Of a DNA stretch of 64,000 nucleotides, positions 29,450-39,447 are shown piece by piece; within the stretch, counting starts at the first letter, position 1, and the number at the start of each line of letters is the position of its first letter. Made by a program: the position numbers and the translations under genes. The DNA lies in assembly GCF_002786325.1 (NCBI RefSeq), contig NZ_PGTB01000009.1:1-64000 (forward strand), written 5' to 3'. This DNA is from Pseudooceanicola lipolyticus (GTDB taxonomy: Bacteria > Pseudomonadota > Alphaproteobacteria > Rhodobacterales > Rhodobacteraceae). The notes beneath the pieces were generated by a model. That model worked only from the letters and a program-made list of their open reading frames with translations. It had not been told where the DNA came from and ran no database searches.

Positions 29450-29526
29450 GGCCCCGTGGCTCAACTGGATAGAGCAGCCCCCTCCTAAGGGGCAGGTTGC
29501 AGGTTCGAATCCTGCCGGGGTCACCA
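29450..29526 (+). tRNA. tRNA-Arg (anticodon CCT)
   Basis: A full cloverleaf: acceptor stem GGCCCCG with CGGGGTC, D-arm GCTCAACTGGATAGAGC, anticodon stem GCCCC/GGGGC around loop CTCCTAA (anticodon CCT), T-arm GCAGGTTCGAATCCTGC, discriminator A and an encoded CCA end. It stands alone between the LacI gene and the arsenate/phosphate block. Confidence 0.97.
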
Positions 29527-29796: not shown

Positions 29797-30648
29797 TCAA
29801 ATCGCCTTGGTCGCCTCGAGCATCTGGCCGATATCGTCCAGTTCCCTCTGCAAGGAGATCCGCGACAGCGATGGGAGCGGCAGCGAGATGAAAGCCTTCA
29901 GGCGGCGTTCCATGGTGGTATAGCTCTGCTTGAACGCCAGCGCACGCTCGGCATCGCTGCCCTCGGTCTTGCCCGGGTCGGACATGCCCCAGTGGGCCGT
30001 CACCGGCTGGCCCAGCAGCGGAGGGCACTCCTCGTTGGCGGCACGATCGCAAACGGTAAACACGAAATCCATCCGGGGTGCAGAGAGTTCGTAAAACACC
30101 TCGATGCTTTTCGGATAGAACAGCGACACGTCATGTCCCCGGGCGCGCAGCACCTCGGCGGCAAGCGGCTTGAGGTCTTTGCGCGGCTGCGTTCCGGCCG
30201 AAAAGGCGCGAAACCGCTCTCCCCCCTCGGCCCTGAGAATGGCCTCGGCAAAGATCGACCGGGTGGAATTGCCGGTGCACACGAACAGCACGTTAAAAAT
30301 CTGCTTCTGGCCAAGCGCCTGATCGGGCTGGCCCTGAGACAGCAAGGTCGCCAAAAGCTCGGGCCGGCCCCGGCAACAATCGTTTACAAGGTATTCGATC
30401 AGGGAGCCGGTCAGCGCGAGGTCGATGCTGTAGTGAAGCGAGCGCCCGCGCCGCGACTGTTGGATCAGGCCCGCGCGCGTCAGGATCCCCAGATAGACCG
30501 AAAGCGTGCTGGGCTTCAGCTCCAGCGCCTCGGTCAACTCTCCGGCTGAAAGGGTGTCGGGCGTGCGCCGCGCCAAAAGGCGAAACACCGCCATGCGCCC
30601 GGGATGCGCAAGAGCAGCGAGCGCCGAGATGTTTGCCTTTTCGTTCAC
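29797..30648 (-). CDS. ArsR-type HTH fused to arsenate reductase (LMW-PTP type ArsC)
   Basis: 283 residues from GTG 30648. Residues 1-100 form an ArsR winged helix (LAHPGRMAVFRLLA, LKPSTLSVYLGILTRAGLI). Residues about 115-283 are a low-molecular-weight phosphatase fold with the loop CTGNSTRS (Cys124, Arg130), the ArsC redox segment TVCDRAANEEC and the HWGMSDP motif typical of thioredoxin-coupled arsenate reductases. A sensor and a detoxifying enzyme are thus on one chain. It is the last gene on the minus strand of the pst operon, 140 bases after the PhoB-like gene. No Acr3 or ArsB efflux gene is nearby. Confidence 0.87.
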   Translation of the reverse strand: MNEKANISALAALAHPGRMAVFRLLARRTPDTLSAGELTEALELKPSTLSVYLGILTRAGLIQQSRRGRSLHYSIDLALTGSLIEYLVNDCCRGRPELLATLLSQGQPDQALGQKQIFNVLFVCTGNSTRSIFAEAILRAEGGERFRAFSAGTQPRKDLKPLAAEVLRARGHDVSLFYPKSIEVFYELSAPRMDFVFTVCDRAANEECPPLLGQPVTAHWGMSDPGKTEGSDAERALAFKQSYTTMERRLKAFISLPLPSLSRISLQRELDDIGQMLEATKAI

Positions 30649-30788
30649 GCCTGTCCGATTTCGAAGCCTGAGACCACTGCACGAAGGAGGTTGCCCAGCC
30701 GATATCAGCATCACACCGCCCAAGGCCGTATATCTAGCATCGTTTCAAGGAGGCCGCCAGAGGACCGCAACAGCCGAGCACCGCGCTC

Positions 30789-31115
30789 TCAGCCCAGCGC
30801 ATATCCCACGCCGCGTATCGTGCGGATCGGATATCTATTATCCGTCTGGCCCAGCGCTTTGCGCAGCCGCGCGATGTGGGTATCAACGGTGCGCTTGTCG
30901 ATTGTCGTTTCCTGGCCCCATACGCGATCGACAAGCGCGGCGCGTGTCCAGGTTTTGCCGGGCCTTTCGATCAGGGCGACCAGTAAAAGAAACTCGGTCG
31001 AGCCGAGATGCACCAGCTTGCCTCCGCGCCGGACCCGCAGGCATTCGATCTCAAGCAGGATATCGTCGAATTCGAACACGAGGTCCGTGGCGATCGATGC
31101 CCGCGCCCAGGTCAT
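30789..31115 (-). CDS. PhoB-like winged-helix DNA-binding domain without receiver
   Basis: 108 residues. After about 15 residues the sequence is a complete OmpR/PhoB effector domain: LGSTEFLLLVALIERPGKTW, RAALVDRVWG, recognition helix KRTVDTHIARLRKAL, and the wing RTIRGVGYALG. No receiver domain exists upstream: the ATG overlaps the phoU stop (ATGA), and phoU is intact. So it is a stand-alone effector domain that cannot be phosphorylated in the usual way. It may bind the promoter of its own operon constitutively or be controlled by PhoU or another partner. Confidence 0.85.
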   Translation of the reverse strand: MTWARASIATDLVFEFDDILLEIECLRVRRGGKLVHLGSTEFLLLVALIERPGKTWTRAALVDRVWGQETTIDKRTVDTHIARLRKALGQTDNRYPIRTIRGVGYALG

Positions 31116-31816
31116 CCGAAATCCGATCCGGTTCTGGTCGCGCCTGGTGGAATGCCGCGCGATACGAACAGAACTTCTTCGGCGATGTTGGTGGCGTGGT
31201 CTCCGATCCGCTCGAGCGCGGTGGCAACGAACAGGCGCCCCACCGAAGCCTGCGCCTGGGCCCGGCCCTGCCCAAGCGCCACCATTGCCGCGTCGAACAC
31301 CGCATCCCTATAGGCGTCAATCCGTTCATCGGTAACCAGGACCTGCTTTGCGGCCTCGGTGGAATTGTCAACCAGCGCCGTCACGCTCAGTTCAAGCGTG
31401 CGCGCGACAAGGGCGGCCATATCCGCGATCTGACCGGCTTCGGCGGGTGCCATTTTCCGGGCCGGCTTGGCAATCCCATGCCGGGCGATGGTCTTGGCAT
31501 GGTCGCCCGCGCGCTCAAGGTTGCCCACCGCGTGCTCGATGCCCATGACCAGCCGCAAATCCTTGGCCACCGGCTGAAACTTCAACAGCACGTCAAAGCA
31601 ATCGGCGCGCAACTCTTCGAAGGCCGTGTCTATATCGAGGTCGCGGGTGATCGCCTCCAGCGCGCGGGGCTCATCGGAGGCGAGATAGGCGGATGTCGCC
31701 AGGCTACAGTTCTCTGCGGTCATTGTACCCATGCGTTTGAAACTCTGGCGAAGAACCTCCAGCGCCGTTTCGAAGGATTTCAGCAGATGCGGGTTGGAAG
31801 CCATGGCCATGCTCAT
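31112..31816 (-). CDS. phoU: Phosphate signalling protein PhoU
   Basis: 234 residues, all-helical with the twofold PhoU repeat; each half ends in the metal-binding signature, [15 protein letters not shown] in the first and [15 protein letters not shown] in the second. PhoU links the Pst transporter with the PhoR/PhoB system and limits phosphate uptake. ATGA overlaps with both pstB and the PhoB-like gene show tight coupling. No PhoR kinase is encoded here. Confidence 0.95.
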
Positions 31817-32691
31817 CCATACCGGCCGGTGATGTAACTTTCGGTGCGCGGGTGCCTGGGGGTGGTGAAGATCTGGTTGGTGTCCCCGAATTCCATCGCT
31901 TCACCGAGATACATGAAGGCTGTGCGATGCGAGATGCGTGCCGCCTGCTGCATGTTGTGGGTGACGATCACGATGGTCACGGTCTCTGACAGTTCCTGCA
32001 AGAGATCCTCGACCTTGGCCGTGGCGATCGGATCGAGCGCCGAGGTCGGCTCGTCCAGCAGCAGGATCTCCGGGTTGGGCGCCAGCCCGCGCGCGATGCA
32101 GAGCCGCTGCTGCTGTCCGCCCGAAAGGTCATAGGCGGAACCGTGCAGCTTGTCCTTCACCTCGTCCCAGATCGCGGCGCGGCGCAGGGCGCTTTCCACC
32201 GCCTCGTCGATCAGCGACCGTTTCTTGATACCGCGCACGCGCAGGCCGGCAGCGACATTTTCATAGATCGACTTCGGAAAGGGATTGGGCTTTTGAAACA
32301 CCATGCCCACGCGCAGGCGCACCAGCACCGGATCGACCTCCGGGCCAATCAGGTTCTCGCCCTCGGGTTCAAGGATCACTTTGCCTTCGTAACGGTTGCC
32401 CGGATAGAGATCATGCATCCGGTTCAGGCTGCGCAGCAAGGTCGACTTGCCACATCCCGAGGGGCCGATGATCGCGGTGATCTTCCGGTCGAGGATCGGC
32501 ATGTCGACATGTTTGATCGCCTGATGACCATTGGCGTAATAGAAGCTGAAATTTTCGATCCGAGCGCGCAGCGGGTCGCGTTCGGCGGAAGGTTTGATCG
32601 GCGGCGGCATGCCGGCCTTTTGCGGGCTGGCCGCGGGCTTGGCTTCGGTGTGTGTCGGCGCCGCGTCATGCGTCATGGATGTGTCTGTCAT
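31813..32691 (-). CDS. pstB: Phosphate ABC transporter ATP-binding protein PstB
   Basis: 292 residues. Walker [10 protein letters not shown], the PstB-specific [13 protein letters not shown], signature [15 protein letters not shown], Walker [13 protein letters not shown] and the H-loop [11 protein letters not shown]. An N-terminal Pro/Ala-rich extension of about 40 residues precedes the ABC core; E. coli PstB lacks it. Starts three bases after pstA. Confidence 0.95.
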
Positions 32692-32694
32692 GGA

Positions 32695-33648
32695 TCAGTT
32701 CCTGTAGCCTTGGCGCAGCCGATAGCGGATCCAGATCGCGATGCCGTTGAGCGAGAAGGTCAAGGCGATCAGAACAACGCCGGTTGCGGCGGCAGCAATG
32801 TGAAATTCGGCCTGGGGGCGGGACACCCAGTTGAACATCTGGATCGGAAGCACGGTGAAACCGTCGTTCAGCCAGGCGAATGAGATGAAGGGAAAATCGC
32901 CGGTCACCGGCGGCGGCGGCAGAAAGGCAATGAAGGTCAGCGCGCCGATGGTGATGATCGGGGCGGTCTCGCCGATGGCGCGGCTCAGGCCCACGATGGC
33001 ACCCGTCAGGATACCTGGGCGCGCGGCAGGGATGATGTAGTTCCACATCACCTGCCATTGGTCGGCGCCAAGCCCGTATGCGCCTTCCTTGATCACTCGT
33101 GGGATCGCGCGCACCGCTTCGCGGGTCGAGACGATCACGATCGGCAGGATCAGCAGCGCCAGCGTCATTCCCGCGACGAGGATCGTCTTGCCGAGGCTGA
33201 AGCCGTAGACGAAAAGCCCGAGCGCAAGCAGGCCGTAGATGATCGAGGGCACCCCGGCGAGGTTCGAGACGTTGATCTCGATAAAATTCGACAGCCACCC
33301 CTTGCGGGCATATTCCTCGAGGTAGAGCCCCGCGCCGATGCCGATGGGAATGGCGAGGAAGGCGGTCACCAGCATAACCAGCAGAGACCCGACCCAGGCC
33401 GACAGGATGCCGGCCCGTTCGGGCAAGCGTGACGGATAACTTGTCAGGAAGGCGTAGTCGATACGCGCGGCGCCCCGGATCACCAGATCGCCGATCAATG
33501 ACAGCAGCAGGGTCATGGCGAGGGCCATGACGACAAGGCCGCCGGCGGCAAACAGGATATCTTTTCTCTTGGCCCGCCGCACCGCGTCGAAGGCGGTTTG
33601 ATCGGTTGTCACGGCAGCGTCGAGGGTGCCTTCGGTGGTCGTGGTCAT
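32695..33648 (-). CDS. pstA: Phosphate ABC transporter permease PstA
   Basis: 317 residues from ATG 33648; longer frames overlap pstC and are Cys/Ser-rich nonsense. Six membrane helices and the permease EAA-type loop EGAYGLGADQWQVMWNYIIPAA. The segment NVSNLAGVPSIIYGLLAL is the PstA-type GVPSIIYG motif. Forms the phosphate channel with PstC. Confidence 0.93.
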   Translation of the reverse strand: MTTTTEGTLDAAVTTDQTAFDAVRRAKRKDILFAAGGLVVMALAMTLLLSLIGDLVIRGAARIDYAFLTSYPSRLPERAGILSAWVGSLLVMLVTAFLAIPIGIGAGLYLEEYARKGWLSNFIEINVSNLAGVPSIIYGLLALGLFVYGFSLGKTILVAGMTLALLILPIVIVSTREAVRAIPRVIKEGAYGLGADQWQVMWNYIIPAARPGILTGAIVGLSRAIGETAPIITIGALTFIAFLPPPPVTGDFPFISFAWLNDGFTVLPIQMFNWVSRPQAEFHIAAAATGVVLIALTFSLNGIAIWIRYRLRQGYRN

Positions 33649-33649
33649 C

Positions 33650-34582
33650 TCAATACGCCTCGCGGAATTTGCGGCGAAGGTAGAAGCCGATGATGTTGAA
33701 GAGCAGCGTGATGACGAACAGCAGCAGCCCGACGGCAAAGATCGACTGGTAGGCGATTGATCCATGTGCCACATCGCCTAGGCTCATCTGGACGATATAG
33801 GCGGTGATCGTTGCGGCGCCTTCGCGGGGATCCCATGTCAAATTGGGGTTCTGGCCGGCGGCGACGGCCAGGACCATCGTTTCTCCCACCGCCCGCGACA
33901 TGCCGAGAATGAAGGCCGCGGTGATGCCGGAAAAGGCGCCGGGAATGACGATGCGTGTGGCCACCTGCCATTTCGCCATGCCGAGGCCATAGCCGCCTTC
34001 GCGCAAACTGTTGGGCACGGCGCGCATGGCGTCTTCGCTGACCGAAACGACATAGGGCAGGATCATGATGCCCAGGATGATGCCAGGGACCAGCAGGTTG
34101 ATGCCTTTCAGGCCCGGAATGATGCCTTGCAGAAAGGGCGTCATCACCAGCAGCGCGAAATAGCCGTAGACCACGGTGGGCACGGCCTCCAGCATCTCCA
34201 GCGCGGGCTTGATCGTTTCGCGGACGGCGGGGCGGGCATATTCGCTCAGATAGACCGCCATGATCAGGCCGAAGGGGACGGCGATGATCATCGCCAGCCC
34301 GGCGGTCTGCAGGGTCGCCGCCAACAGCGGCAGCACGCCGAATTGCGGGTTGGCGAAGACCGGGGTCCACATCGTTCCGAACAGGAAGTCGAACAGCGGT
34401 ACGTTGACGAAAAAATCCCAGGAATCACGCAGGAGGATAAAGACGATCGCGGTGGTCACGAAGACCGACAACGCCGCGCAGAGAAACAGGAAAACCTTCA
34501 TGCCGCGCGCAATCCAGCGTCTGCGCCGGACAAAGCCGCTGCGGATCAGCTCTGCCGAGGTGGGGATGGAAGTGTCGGACAC
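33650..34582 (-). CDS. pstC: Phosphate ABC transporter permease PstC
   Basis: 310 residues, six membrane helices, with the motifs MLEAVPTVVYGYFALL and the EAA loop EGGYGLGMAKWQVATRIVIPGA. Its stop lies one base before the pstA start codon. Paralogue of PstA; the two form the membrane core of the transporter. Confidence 0.93.
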   Translation of the reverse strand: MSDTSIPTSAELIRSGFVRRRRWIARGMKVFLFLCAALSVFVTTAIVFILLRDSWDFFVNVPLFDFLFGTMWTPVFANPQFGVLPLLAATLQTAGLAMIIAVPFGLIMAVYLSEYARPAVRETIKPALEMLEAVPTVVYGYFALLVMTPFLQGIIPGLKGINLLVPGIILGIMILPYVVSVSEDAMRAVPNSLREGGYGLGMAKWQVATRIVIPGAFSGITAAFILGMSRAVGETMVLAVAAGQNPNLTWDPREGAATITAYIVQMSLGDVAHGSIAYQSIFAVGLLLFVITLLFNIIGFYLRRKFREAY

Positions 34583-34607
34583 GATGACCTCGCTTGGCCG
34601 GAACAGG

Positions 34608-34633
34608 GGCGGTGGGGCCGAGGTCCCACCGCC
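34608..34633 (-). promoter_or_regulatory. Stem-loop between pstS and pstC
   Basis: GGCGGTGGG (34608-34616) and CCCACCGCC (34625-34633) form a perfect 9-bp stem with an 8-nt loop, 15 bases after the pstS stop on the transcribed strand. No T-tract. Expected to favour pstS mRNA over the permease genes. Confidence 0.6.
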
Positions 34634-34648
34634 GGATCGAGAAAGGTC

Positions 34649-35620
<972 letters not shown>

Positions 35621-35690
35621 GAGCAGACATTCTCCTGTCAGTGTTGGTAAGCTCGGCGCCTTGTTACGAATGCCTTGTAAAAGTTTTGTG

Positions 35691-35702
35691 AATTCATGAA
35701 TT
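35691..35702. promoter_or_regulatory. Palindrome AATTCATGAATT, pstS-side copy
   Basis: A perfect 12-bp palindrome, followed on the right by ATC as in the second copy. It lies 71 bases upstream of the pstS start codon, where a repressor would block that promoter. The right half GAATTATC is identical to that of the copy at 35888-35905. Confidence 0.6.
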
Positions 35703-35887
35703 ATCAAATTAAAGATTTTGGCCCGGCATTGACGACTTGTCCATCGATCGAAACATGCACGATCTCACCTGTCTGCAAGGCCTTTTCTTGCCATCGGGCC
35801 GGAGAGCGAGGCCGGAAGGTGAAGTGTGAAGATTTTGTAAAAACTGAATTTTCTCGGCAATGACTGTCACGGCGCGCTTGATGAAAT
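35703..35887. other. Divergent promoter region between pstS and phnD
   Basis: Non-coding DNA between the two palindromes, within the 375-base pstS/phnD intergenic region. A single CTGTCAC half of a Pho box occurs near 35863, but no second half at the required 11-base spacing was found, so a PhoB box is not claimed. Confidence 0.45.
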
Positions 35888-35905
35888 GATAATTCATGAA
35901 TTATC
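35888..35905. promoter_or_regulatory. Palindrome GATAATTCATGAATTATC, phnD-side copy
   Basis: A perfect 18-bp palindrome 91 bases before the phnD ATG. Its centre is exactly 200 bp from the centre of the pstS-side copy. ATTCATGAAT resembles the inverted repeats bound by ArsR/SmtB-family repressors; the ArsR-ArsC fusion is the obvious candidate protein. Confidence 0.65.
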
Positions 35906-35995
35906 GAATGAATCGCGCCCCTCGCATCGAGCCGGGCGCCAGACCGATTGTCAATTTCCTCACGCGGCACCGACCGCACTTCCGACGGAGACACC

Positions 35996-36952
35996 ATGTC
36001 CTTTCTTTCCAACAGCATTGCCGGCGCAACGGTTGCGGCCTTCTGCGCGACACCCGTCCTGGCAGAATTCCAGCTGGGCGACCGCTATACCGATGCCGAT
36101 GGCGATCTCGTGGCCGATATCCCGGCGGATGCCGCCGATCAGATCGACCCGTCGACGTTGATCTTTGCCTATACCCCGGTCGAAGACCCGGCCGTCTATG
36201 CCGATGTCTGGTCCGAATTCCTCGACCACATGAGCGAAGTCACCGGCAAAAGCGTCCAGTTCTTCCCGGTCCAGTCTAATGCCGCCCAGATCGAGGCGAT
36301 GCGCGCCGGTCGTCTGCATGTGGCGGGGTTCAACACCGGTTCCAATCCGCTGGCCGTGGCCTGCGCCGGGTTTCGGCCCTTCGCCATGATGGCGGGCGAA
36401 GACGGCTCCTTCGGTTACGAAATGGAGATCATCACCCACCCGGATTCGGGGATCACTGCTGTTGAGGATATCAAGGGCGGGCAGATGGCCTTCACCTCGG
36501 AAACCTCGAATTCGGGCTTCAAGGCACCCTCGGCGATCCTGAAGGCCGATTTCGACATGGAAGCGGGCCGCGATTTCGAGCCGGTGTTCTCCGGCAAGCA
36601 CGACAATTCGATCCTCGGCGTCGCCAACAAGGACTATCCGGCGGCGGCCATCGCGAATTCCGTCAAGGCGCGGATGATCGAGCGCGAGGTTGTCTCGGAC
36701 GACCAGATGAACGTGATCTACACCTCGCAGACCTTCCCGACGACCGGTTACGGCGTGGCCTACAACCTGACGCCCGCGCTTCAGGACAGCATCCGCGAGG
36801 CGTTCTTCAGCTTCGACTGGACCGGCACCGGGCTGGAAGAGGAATTCGGCAAGAACGGCGAAGCCCAGTTCATTGAGATCAGCTTCAAAGAGGACTGGTC
36901 GGTGATCCGCAAGATCGACGAGGCCAACGGCGTCTCTTACGACTGCCAGTAA
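35996..36952 (+). CDS. phnD: Phosphate/phosphite/phosphonate ABC transporter binding protein (PhnD-like)
   Basis: 318 residues from ATG 35996 with CGGAG upstream. Signal peptide ending at PVLAEFQ. The PhnD fold is seen in [25 protein letters not shown], and [15 protein letters not shown], where Ser/Thr residues contact the phosph(on)ate oxyanion. Ligand could be phosphonate, phosphite, phosphate or a mimic such as arsenate; no C-P lyase or phosphite dehydrogenase gene is in the window, so the ligand stays open. Confidence 0.88.
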
Positions 36953-36968
36953 CCGATGCCGCAATGCA

Positions 36969-36996
36969 GGCCAGGCGGGCAATGTCCCGCCTGGCC
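36969..36996 (+). promoter_or_regulatory. Stem-loop between phnD and phnC
   Basis: GGCCAGGCGGG-CAATGT-CCCGCCTGGCC: perfect 11-bp stem, 6-nt loop, 16 bases after the phnD stop and 20 before phnC. No T-tract. Confidence 0.65.
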
Positions 36997-37016
36997 GTTC
37001 AGCGAAAGCCACACCC

Positions 37017-37838
37017 ATGCTTGAACTTGTCTCCCTGTCCAAGATCTACCGGACCGGCGACGCCGCCCTGACCGAGGTGTCCTTGCAGGTACCCAAGGGC
37101 CAGATCGTCGGGCTGATCGGCCCGTCGGGTGCCGGGAAATCCACTCTGATCCGCTGCATAAACCGCCTGGTCGAGCCGAGCGCGGGCGAGATCCGGCTGG
37201 GAGGTATGAGCCTGGTGGCTCTGGGGCGCAGCGATCTGCGCCGGCAGCGCCGACGGATCGGCATGATCTTTCAGGAATATGCGCTGGTCGAACGGCTGAC
37301 GGTGATGGAAAACGTGCTTTCCGGACGGTTGGGCTATGTGCCGTTCTGGCGCAGCTTCCTGCGCCGGTACCAGTCGAAGGACATCCAGCGCGCCTATCAA
37401 CTGTTGGACCGGGTCGGACTTCTGGCCCATGCGAACAAGCGCGCCGATGCGCTTTCCGGTGGACAGCGCCAAAGGGTGGGCATTGCCCGAGCCTTGGCGC
37501 AAGAGCCCGATCTGCTGTTGGTGGACGAACCTACCGCCAGCCTCGACCCCAAGACCAGCCGCCAGATCATGCGCCTGCTGACAGAAATCTGCGCCGAACG
37601 CGATCTGCCTGCCATCGTCAACATCCATGACGTGCCGCTGGCGCGGCAATTCATGCAGCGCATCGTGGGTCTTCGCGCCGGGCAGGTGGTGTTCGATGGC
37701 TCCCCGGTCGAGTTGACCGAGGCGTCGCTTACCGAGATTTATGGCGCCGAGGATTGGGACGCCATGCGCAAGGGGGACGCCGAACAGGCCGCTGCCGAAA
37801 GTGACGCGTTGCAGCATCTCGCTGAGGTCGGGGCATGA
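37017..37838 (+). CDS. phnC: Phosphonate-type ABC transporter ATP-binding protein PhnC
   Basis: 273 residues. Walker [10 protein letters not shown], the PhnC-type [21 protein letters not shown], signature [15 protein letters not shown], Walker [14 protein letters not shown] and H-loop [11 protein letters not shown]. Encodes the ATPase of the transporter formed with the two permeases that follow. Its stop overlaps the next ATG. Confidence 0.93.
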
Positions 37839-38638
37839 GTGCGCCATACCCGGGCACATGGCATCGTCCGCCCCAGATCATACGTGACCGGCGATTGCGG
37901 GTTGCGCTACAGATCGCGGTCCTGCTGTATCTCGCGCTGGCCTTCGGCACGATCGAGGTCAATTGGCAGCGTGTTTCCGAGGGGTTGGAGCGCGGCCAGC
38001 GTTTCGTCATGGGCTTCTTGCAGCCGGATTTCACCAGTCGTTGGCGCGACATCAGCCAGGGGCTCCTGGAAAGCCTGACGATGACGCTGACCTCGACGGT
38101 GATCGGCGTGCTGATTTCTGTGCCTATCGGGATCGGGGCGGCGCGCAACCTTGTCCCGCGCCCGGTCTACCTTGTCTGCCGTGCCATCGTCGCGGTCAGC
38201 CGGTCGCTGCAAGAGGTGATTGTTGCCATCTTCCTGGTCGCGATGTTCGGCTTTGGCCCATTCGCGGGCTTCCTCACGCTGACCTTCGCCACGATCGGCT
38301 TTATCGCCAAGCTTCTCGCCGACGATATCGAAGAGATCGACGAGGCCCAGGCCGAGGCCATTCGCGCCACCGGAGCCACGTGGTTTCAGCTGTTGAACTA
38401 TGCGGTTCAGCCGCAGGTGATGCCGCGCCTGATCGGCCTGTCGCTATATCGGTTGGACATCAACTTTCGCGAAAGCGCGGTGATCGGCATCGTCGGCGCG
38501 GGCGGGATCGGCGCCACTCTGAACACTTCAATCGACCGCTACGAATATGACAGCGCCGGAGCGATCCTGTTGATCATCATCGCCATCGTGATGGTGGCGG
38601 AATACAGCTCCAGCTATCTCAGGAAGTTCCTGCAATGA
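37835..38638 (+). CDS. phnE: Phosphonate-type ABC transporter permease PhnE (first copy)
   Basis: 267 residues. After an N-terminal helix, the permease core has five or so helices and the EAA-loop [22 protein letters not shown], with [24 protein letters not shown], the hallmark of PhnE. ATGA overlaps on both sides with phnC and the second phnE. Two PhnE-type subunits suggest a heterodimeric channel. Confidence 0.92.
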
Positions 38639-39447
38639 CCCACGCCGCTTCGCTTCCTGCCACATGGTCCTATCGCAGCCGGACCGTGCGACTCGCGCTT
38701 TGGGCCGGTTGGTTGGCACTGGTCGCTCTTTTTGTCTGGTGCTGGCAGATAATGACCCAGACAACCATCTGGGCCTTTGTGCTCGATGCGCCGCGGCAAG
38801 CCGCCGATATCGGTGCGCGGATGGTTCCGCCGAAATGGGGTTACCTCCCCGAGTTGATGCTGCCGCTGTGGGACACGCTGAACATCGCCACGCTGGGCAC
38901 GATGGGCGGGGTGATCCTTGCTGTGCCCGTGGCCTTGATGGCGGCGCGCAACACCACACCTTCGGCCACCATTCTGCGTCCGATCGCGCTGTTCATCATC
39001 GTTGCATCGCGGTCGATCAACTCGTTGATCTGGGCGCTCCTGCTGGTGACGATCATCGGACCCGGATTGCTGGCCGGGATCATCGCTATCGCGCTGCGTT
39101 CGATCGGATTCATCGGCAAGCTGTTCTATGAGGCCATCGAGGAAACCGATCCGACCCAGATCGAGGCCATCGAGGCAACCGGCGCCGGACCCGTGCAGGT
39201 TTTGACCTATGGCGTGGTGCCGCAAGTCATGCCGACGCTGTGGGGCATCTCCGTCTTTCGATGGGACATCAACATTCGGGAAAGCACCATTCTCGGATTG
39301 GTTGGCGCGGGTGGTATCGGCCTGAAGTTGAACGCCTCGATGGCGGTTCTGGCATGGGACCAGGTCACGGTGATCCTGTTGTTGATCCTGGGCACCGTCA
39401 TCGCCAGCGAATGGGTCGCTGCCTGGGTCCGCCGCACCATCATCTGA
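38635..39447 (+). CDS. phnE: Phosphonate-type ABC transporter permease PhnE (second copy)
   Basis: 270 residues, paralogous to the preceding gene: IEAIEATGAGPVQVLTYGVVPQ and SVFRWDINIRESTILGLVGAGGIGL align with the first copy. Last gene of the phnDCEE operon. Confidence 0.92.
   Translation: MTHAASLPATWSYRSRTVRLALWAGWLALVALFVWCWQIMTQTTIWAFVLDAPRQAADIGARMVPPKWGYLPELMLPLWDTLNIATLGTMGGVILAVPVALMAARNTTPSATILRPIALFIIVASRSINSLIWALLLVTIIGPGLLAGIIAIALRSIGFIGKLFYEAIEETDPTQIEAIEATGAGPVQVLTYGVVPQVMPTLWGISVFRWDINIRESTILGLVGAGGIGLKLNASMAVLAWDQVTVILLLILGTVIASEWVAAWVRRTII

Follow-up and report, generated by a model that had tools for sequence, protein, structure and literature searches.

A pst–phn block with an ArsR–ArsC fusion in Pseudooceanicola lipolyticus: a candidate arsenic-derepressed switch of phosphorus supply

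The block and its gene content

The stretch of DNA analyzed here, in the following called the window, comprises the first 64,000 nucleotides of contig NZ_PGTB01000009.1 of Pseudooceanicola lipolyticus, and it contains a block in which a phosphate transporter (Pst) operon that ends in an ArsR–ArsC fusion gene lies back to back with a phn-type importer operon. Profile searches confirmed the genes, their order, and the two strands given in a preliminary description: the minus strand encodes pstS, pstC, pstA, pstB, phoU, a PhoB protein without receiver domain, and the fusion, and the plus strand encodes phnD, phnC, and two phnE genes, which start divergently from pstS across a shared region of exactly 375 bp (35621–35995; Table 1). 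On comparative sequence evidence, we consider it rather probable that the block is a compact, arsenic-derepressed switch of phosphorus supply, i.e., a device for changing the phosphorus source. An operator core shared with arsenic loci, the precedent of a homologous locus in Agrobacterium tumefaciens 5A, a complete Gpx-type ligand pocket, the loss of the PhoB receiver, and the position of related PstS genes beside arsenic genes together favor this reading.

Neither an efflux pump nor PhoR is encoded inside the block. The absence of a pump, noted before, is thus true of the block but not of the genome (5.2 Mb in 439 contigs), which carries ACR3 on contig C417 and, on contig C354, a second ArsR–ArsC fusion (54% identical to that of the block) followed by an ArsJ-associated GAPDH and by ArsJ, both above their NCBIfam cut-offs. 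A separate pstB and a full PhoB, again both above cut-offs, lie on contig C318, and the block, with its phn importer, adds a second pst operon to the canonical one, as is typical of the pst1/phn1 loci of arsenic islands, a survey of which is part of PMC3834237. The arsenite oxidase subunit AioA had a match at E ≤ 1e-30 only in Labrenzia (G249) among the five genomes searched, and none in the four genomes with the module (G000, G232, G248, and G705); the block may therefore resemble an arsenic-island pst1/phn1 locus in its working without being an aio island.

Table 1. Features of the block and its border in the window
Feature	Position	Strand	Evidence
tRNA-Arg (CCT) adjoining the fusion gene, possibly bordering an insertion	29450–29526	+	
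ArsR–ArsC (LMWPc) fusion, 283 aa	29797–30648	−	HTH_20, HTH_5, and LMWPc above Pfam gathering thresholds
Receiverless PhoB, 108 aa	30789–31115	−	Trans_reg_C as sole domain
phoU	31112–31816	−	TIGR02135, 151.7 bits (cut-off 130.25)
pstB	31813–32691	−	TIGR00972, 372.6 bits (cut-off 343.2)
pstA	32695–33648	−	TIGR00974, 256.3 bits (cut-off 193.45)
pstC	33650–34582	−	TIGR02138, 267.2 bits (cut-off 196.45)
pstS, arsenic-island type	34649–35620	−	TIGR02136, 275.8 bits (cut-off 206.6)
Candidate operator 1, pst side, TGAATTCATGAATTAT	35689–35704		Position weight matrix, 22.5 bits, rank 2 in the 64-kb window
Candidate operator 2, phn side, perfect palindrome ATAATTCATGAATTAT	35889–35904		Position weight matrix, 30.0 bits, rank 1 in the 64-kb window
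phnD, better named gpxB-like, predicted glycerol-phosphate binding protein	35996–36952	+	75.0% identity to GpxB
phnC-like ATPase of the same importer	37017–37838	+	ABC_tran
phnE-like permease 1	37835–38638	+	TIGR01097, 279.9 bits (cut-off 216.7)
phnE-like permease 2	38635–39447	+	TIGR01097, 274.5 bits (cut-off 216.7)

Two candidate operators in the shared promoter region

The two palindromes in the 375-bp region have the common core TTCATGAA, and a promoter scan placed a −10-like GATAAT, ending at 35893, across operator 2. The same core marks the upstream regions of arsRC-gapdh operons: it occurs in 33 of 92 non-redundant regions, whereas 0.6 would be expected on the basis of random stretches from these loci, and ranks first among all 256 palindromic 8-mers, the runner-up being found in 5. 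The outcome was the same before three near-copies were removed (33 of 95 regions, 1.1 expected, runner-up in 6); congeners such as seven Ruegeria rows were kept, and the rows are therefore not independent events. A wider core, TTC[AG][TC]GAA, occurs in 48 of the 92 regions and in 39 of 1840 controls, and its position over the start codon is mostly fixed, as 40 of the 48 sites begin 10–11 nt before the first matched codon.

The position weight matrix was trained without the window, without the paralogue of the same genome (L006), and without pst-linked loci (L022, L023, L025, and L102 were left out; L092 was included but has no core). Simulated windows gave a mean best site of 11.8 bits, and none of 100 reached 30; in an earlier set of 50 windows the best score was 22.3. 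Since the matrix core was chosen after that of the window had been seen, its ranking of the operators is not fully independent, a circularity that the comparison of all 256 palindromes avoids because no core is picked beforehand.

Upstream of pstS or phnD, the core TTCATGAA recurs at six other loci in five genomes (L022, L132, L023, L025, L163, and L182). The phn operon of Harenicola maris has such a site even though it lies on a separate contig from the pst half, and in Martelella (L163) the flanks of the core differ and the matrix score is low. Among 73 phnD matches, 28 other loci (L133–L160) have no exact core within 400 bp. A stricter pattern, WWWTTCATGAAWWW, has one site in the P. lipolyticus genome, at operator 2, and five of its nine sites over four genomes belong to arsRC, pst, or phn genes. 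The arsRC copy on C354 has the variant TTAATCCATGAATTAT.

The preliminary description had proposed arsenic-linked, ArsR-type control of both operons. This gains support from the core, which is the conserved start-region palindrome of arsRC genes, and from A. tumefaciens 5A, in which, according to the available part of PMC7965956, arsenite, As(III), induces PhoB1, PstS1CAB, PhoU1, a PhoB-like gene, an “ArsC,” and four phn genes, and most As(III)-induced genes of the locus are raised when ArsR1 is missing, while pst2 does not respond. Judged by gene order rather than by sequence, the 5A “ArsC” (AT5A_25620) would be a fusion as well.

The phn arm resembles a glycerol-phosphate importer

The solved structures closest to PhnD are 9LF9 and 9LFB (E 3e-157), which represent GpxB of Marinobacter DSM11874 with glycerol-1- and glycerol-3-phosphate, bound with a Kd of about 1–2 micromolar (PMC12718374, in the part available). 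PhnD is 75.0% identical to this binding protein of a marine transporter over 304 residues and has all nine ligand residues listed for 9LF9, whereas the phosphite binders PtxB and the 5jvb protein share four of the nine, the same four head-group residues in both. The 5jvb protein is presumably PhnD1 of Prochlorococcus. With the phosphonate model TIGR03431, PhnD stays below the curated score (134.8 versus 261.1 bits), and it passes the broad TIGR01098 (225.7 bits, cut-off 112.05). The phn arm is, by this comparison, probably a glycerol-phosphate importer, and the earlier idea of two oxyanion transporters of differing selectivity is at best partly supported.

The nine residues are complete in 39 of 39 homologous rows (36 distinct loci) of at least 67% identity, the homologues of 51–53% having been left out; the pocket is therefore no mark of arsenic-linked copies. 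These rows include the three phnD proteins of the pSinA, Agrobacterium CFBP6626, and Martelella arsenic regions, and the glycerol-phosphate point would thus reach beyond the present genome. If it is true, the “phn1” operons in arsenic islands like those of pSinA and Agrobacterium would, by homology, also encode glycerol-phosphate importers. This would bear on the role of phn in islands of arsenite oxidizers, which a review, as far as its available text goes, lists as unclear (PMC7533571). The GpxB paper itself makes no link to arsenic (“arsen” occurs 0 times in its main text; PMC12718374), whereas here a gpxB-like gene lies under a candidate ArsR-type operator. Among the matches listed, no open-licence paper joins GpxB-type transport with arsenic, or an ArsR–ArsC fusion with pst, which is weak evidence of absence.

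The idea that Gpx replaces C3-phosphate lost via ArsJ was dropped as a leading explanation, since 1-arseno-3-phosphoglycerate is not exported in Vibrio cholerae (available part of PMC9601151). A HAD phosphatase as partner of Gpx was also rejected, as HAD genes lie between phnD and arsRC in a single metagenome-assembled genome (MAG; L092), and the first of them has no homologue in the other loci compared; nor is L092 a divergent promoter pair, since about 1.9 kb and the HAD genes lie between. As an observation in its own right, this MAG (M0106; L092:2185-3930) has HAD-type phosphatase genes between a gpxB-like operon and arsRC-gapdh, possibly a cluster for glycerol-phosphate use.

A PhoB protein without receiver domain

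The PhoB protein reaches 101.4 bits with the full-length PhoB model TIGR02154 (cut-off 296.2), of which positions 127–225 alone are matched. Its ATG overlaps the stop codon of phoU (GGATGACC), which leaves no room for a receiver. The receiver is gone in the window, in H. maris (L022), in Mameliella sp. MMSF_3455 (L023), and in L182 (genome G705). In Martelella it is there with the aligned acceptor Asp changed to Asn; in pSinA it is degenerate, its Pfam score of 30.0 lying just under the threshold of 30.2; and in Cereibacter the gene after phoU encodes a full PhoB above cut-off (317 bits). A missing or degenerate receiver implies that control by phosphorylation is gone, and a PhoB output domain on its own can be active without being phosphorylated. 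The domain is under constraint, with a ratio of nonsynonymous to synonymous changes (pN/pS) of 0.25 versus L182, and 12 of the 14 residues of its recognition helix RTVDTHIARLRKAL are identical to those of E. coli PhoB. The locus offers a natural case in which the receiver of a response regulator is intact, blunted, or gone among relatives as the gene passes under another regulator.

The ArsR–ArsC fusion

For the fusion, the GTG start at 30648 is preferred over the listed TTG at 30723, as it aligns with the ATG of L022, L023, and L182. Its ArsR half is a winged helix with the vicinal pair Cys91-Cys92, and its ArsC half is a low-molecular-weight protein tyrosine phosphatase (LMW-PTP) domain with the pattern of thioredoxin-linked ArsC: a CX5R loop from Cys124 (CTGNSTR) to Arg130 and the relay cysteines Cys200 and Cys208. 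We take the roles of loop and relay to be those of the ArsC of pI258. The curated score of TIGR02691 is not reached (65.2 versus 174.3 bits). In the alignment, the As(III) site of the AfArsR type is incomplete, since Leu99 occupies the column of the third Cys. The predicted structure has two domains and a flexible linker at residues 105–113, with a predicted local distance difference test (pLDDT) value under 50.

Such fusions are common; within the bacterial family, 143 of the 248 genomes encode one at E ≤ 1e-60 (own genome included). Among the named loci, the best 80 of at least 578 confirmed matches, an arsenic-type gapdh adjoins the fusion in 72. The catalytic cysteines are present in all 81 rows having an ArsC half. 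Of the 82 fusion rows, 49 have the vicinal pair (33 do not) and 45 have the third Cys; L102–L130, as well as partial and duplicate rows, were left out of the 82, and a few near-copies remain. Exactly four of the 82 rows have the pair without the third Cys, and these are the pst- or phn-linked ones: the window, L022, L023, and Labrenzia sp. 011 (L025). The fusions of L182 and Martelella likewise have the pair but no third Cys, and those of pSinA and CFBP6626 have no Cys in that segment. The 33 fusions without vicinal pair mostly have VG there and, in place of the TTCATGAA-type core, which most of them lack, the upstream regions inspected hint at an inverted repeat with a wider spacing close to the start codon.

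In a tree of 84 fusion rows (L101, which has no ArsC half, left out), the window groups with L022, L023, and L025 in a single clade (98/86, a rough bootstrap that is not settled), and the Martelella and pSinA types lie elsewhere. The arsRC-gapdh-arsJ operon of L061, filed under a Verrucomicrobiaceae MAG, groups with Rhodobacteraceae in this tree and is possibly mis-binned.

Like other arsRC-gapdh-arsJ operons of Rhodobacteraceae, the C354 copy shares the fusion and the TTCATGAA-type operator family with the block, but it heads an arsenate efflux operon and has the third Cys. The arsRC gene of Leptospirillum ferriphilum is reported to serve as both ArsR and ArsC, but it belongs to an arsU-arsRC-arsB set, and the available text of PMC4443643 names no phosphate transporter. 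SpArsR of Shewanella putrefaciens 200 resembles the block fusion in having the vicinal pair without third Cys; it is presented as an ArsR, and the available parts of PMC11868830 and PMC13236881 mention no ArsC half.

Distribution and related loci

The PstS type of the window is rare: at E ≤ 1e-60, 2 of the 248 genomes of the family have it, and at E ≤ 1e-90 it occurs in 3 of 390 genomes of the order and in 5 of 385 of the class, the own genome included each time. A pst half that ends in the receiverless PhoB and the fusion occurs in the window, H. maris, Mameliella sp. MMSF_3455, and L182. Conservation of the arrangement in relatives, on which the preliminary description had staked its reading, was thus found, but the full order is rare: it is joined in two more genomes, and in H. 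maris the halves are apart. That three other genomes keep this order of the pst half, and that in two of them phn is its divergent neighbor, argues that the block has not arisen by chance. In Labrenzia sp. 011, the fusion adjoins phnDCEE, and the flanks of 10 kb contain no pst. Identities to the window in tblastn were 92–95% for PstS, 71% for PhoU, and 64–75% for the PhoB domain, a sign of tighter conservation of the transporter than of the regulators. Some 0.8 kb from the pstS of the H. maris copy lies a phage-type integrase gene (L022:2965-4263), an indication that the block has moved.

PstS relatives on plasmids amount to 37 records. Six of the eight plasmid regions opened have arsenic-resistance genes near pst (Martelella AD-3, pSinA, CFBP6626, Xanthomonas, NT-25, and Acinetobacter PK01); in that of Cereibacter azotoformans, phoB is followed by an ArsR-family regulator and a permease but no gene is annotated as arsenical, and that of Gloeocapsa has none of these.

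The known loci help to place the block. The 5A-type pst/pho/phn1 locus is alike in having pstSCAB-phoU-PhoB-like genes plus a phn importer, separate from the canonical pst2, but its regulator is ArsR1, whereas the candidate regulator of the block is the fusion, and the present block comes without an AioA match and without an ars operon of its own. The loci of pSinA and CFBP6626 share the gene order including the fusion; the block differs from this type by the TTCATGAA operator core, the complete loss of the receiver, and the divergence of phn from pst. On the plasmid of Martelella sp. AD-3 (NZ_CP014277.1), pstSCAB-phoU-PhoB-like-arsRC is found with divergent arsC and phnDCEE, and with the palindrome TTTCATGAAA before pstS; besides its retained receiver, this locus differs by an arsenic transporter, arsH, and arsC alongside, and by a fusion on another, long branch. 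The block is a stripped-down, probably self-regulated relative of the known arsenic-island phosphorus locus.

A model of the switch and its alternatives

In the arsenic-derepressed switch that we favor, the ArsR half would, without arsenic, sit on the two candidate operators, which match the arsRC operator family by comparison, and repress both promoters, including that of its own gene, the last of the pst operon. An arsenic species would free the DNA, and four products would follow: a second Pst system of the arsenic-island type for phosphate; a GpxB-type importer with glycerol-1- and glycerol-3-phosphate as predicted ligands, judging by identity and pocket; a PhoB domain that would escape restraint by phosphate via PhoR and therefore may act on Pho-type promoters in phosphate-replete cells; and an ArsC domain that would reduce arsenate and thereby reset the loop. 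Arsenite and arsenate would leave by the ACR3 and ArsJ encoded elsewhere. Arsenic creates a dilemma of phosphorus supply because arsenate enters through phosphate transporters, and an import of glycerol phosphate would be a simple, testable answer, as phosphorus would be taken up in a form that arsenate cannot mimic. Four features of the block are the most useful: its operator, the reading of its “phn” arm as a glycerol-phosphate importer, a PhoB without receiver, and a sensor with two cysteines.

Several observations weigh against this model. The exact core is missing from 59 of the 92 arsRC-gapdh upstream regions and from the promoters of pSinA, CFBP6626, and L092, which lack even the wider core and where the best scores are weak or elsewhere; L182 has one exact core, not two; one simulated window contained a site of 24.9 bits, above operator 1 (22.5), though none reached operator 2; and four of the nine WWWTTCATGAAWWW sites have no pst, phn, or ars query gene within 1.5 kb. 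The second ArsRC, on C354, could bind the same operators. The wider core is found with 31 of 39 testable gapdh-linked fusions having the full Cys set and with 1 of 33 fusions lacking the vicinal pair, so that sensor type and operator type go together. The ArsR half of the block fusion lacks the third arsenite ligand. Both halves of the block occur together only in the window, Mameliella sp. MMSF_3455, and L182. In the pstS–phnD gap, the best Pho box match (11 of 14) was reached by 17 of 300 nulls, leaving no convincing target for the PhoB domain there. Finally, a review states, in its available part, that A. tumefaciens PstS1 binds arsenate and Pst1 imports it, which speaks against a protective role (PMC7533571).

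Several alternatives concern what the switch senses. The preliminary description had the fusion sense the arsenite that it makes; the loss of the third ligand in the clade and of the vicinal pair in 33 of 82 rows weakens this, while the catalytic cysteines are complete in every ArsC half. The corresponding explanation has an ArsR of the classical, arsenite-sensing kind, supplied by the ArsC of the same protein, toggle between two oxyanion transporters (phosphate versus phosphonate, phosphite, or arsenate). It draws on the fusion of ArsR and LMW-PTP domains and on the As(III) induction of the homologous 5A locus. It is nevertheless quite unlikely, as PhnD has the complete GpxB pocket where PtxB and PhnD1 match four of nine residues, the third Cys is missing in the window, L022, L023, L025, and L182, and the same operator core on both promoters predicts joint control rather than a toggle. 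The sensor could instead be the ArsC half: binding or reduction of arsenate at Cys124, together with the Cys200/Cys208 relay, would alter DNA binding, which would make the fusion a one-piece arsenate sensor. The invariance of the catalytic cysteines (81 of 81, versus 49 and 45 of 82 for the pair and the third Cys) and the frequent neighbor gapdh, an arsenate route, would suit this, but a plain enzyme would be conserved equally, the flexible linker predicted gives no sign of coupling, and the inducer in the precedent is As(III), acting via ArsR1; we regard this sensor as rather unlikely. Of similar, low probability is a two-cysteine site that answers methylarsenite, MAs(III), instead of arsenite: the vicinal pair aligns with the CC of the ArsR chain 6j05, and SpArsR, with the same loss of the third Cys, answers MAs(III) and not As(III) (available parts of PMC11868830 and PMC13236881), but the third position lies seven residues past the pair here and six in AfArsR. 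A combined version, in which the trigger is something other than plain arsenite (arsenate via the ArsC half, or methylarsenite) and a regulon of Pst, Gpx, and a phosphorylation-blind PhoB overrides phosphate sensing, is possible but tentative.

The role of the PhoB domain is a separate matter. Instead of activating, it might be a remnant in decay, or it might compete for PhoB sites and block them, given that no Pho box was found beside its gene and that the receiver is lost or degenerate to varying degrees; the open frame in four of four clade genomes (the other three being 64–76% identical to the window), the pN/pS value, and the recognition helix conserved as in E. coli render this doubtful, though conceivable. 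Very improbable is an ordinary extra pst operon of the Pho regulon that picked up an unrelated ArsRC gene. Distant operons with a PstS of 51–54% identity (L185–L187) do have pstSCAB-phoU-phoB without the fusion in the stretch compared, but the block has an ArsRC-type operator core on both sides, and the fusion takes the same place in four genomes and, with a different fusion branch, in Martelella.

Further observations

The tRNA-Arg gene next to the fusion was considered as an insertion edge, which was not supported: within the 64-kb window, the att repeat of the tRNA 3′ end is found in the tRNA itself alone. On C354 (L006:9420-12385), beyond arsRC-gapdh-arsJ, there are genes for an ArsR-like protein, for an oxidoreductase-like protein that has a Cys-rich tail and no NCBIfam match at E ≤ 1e-10, and for an ArsK-like protein of the major facilitator superfamily that scores below the ArsK cut-off.

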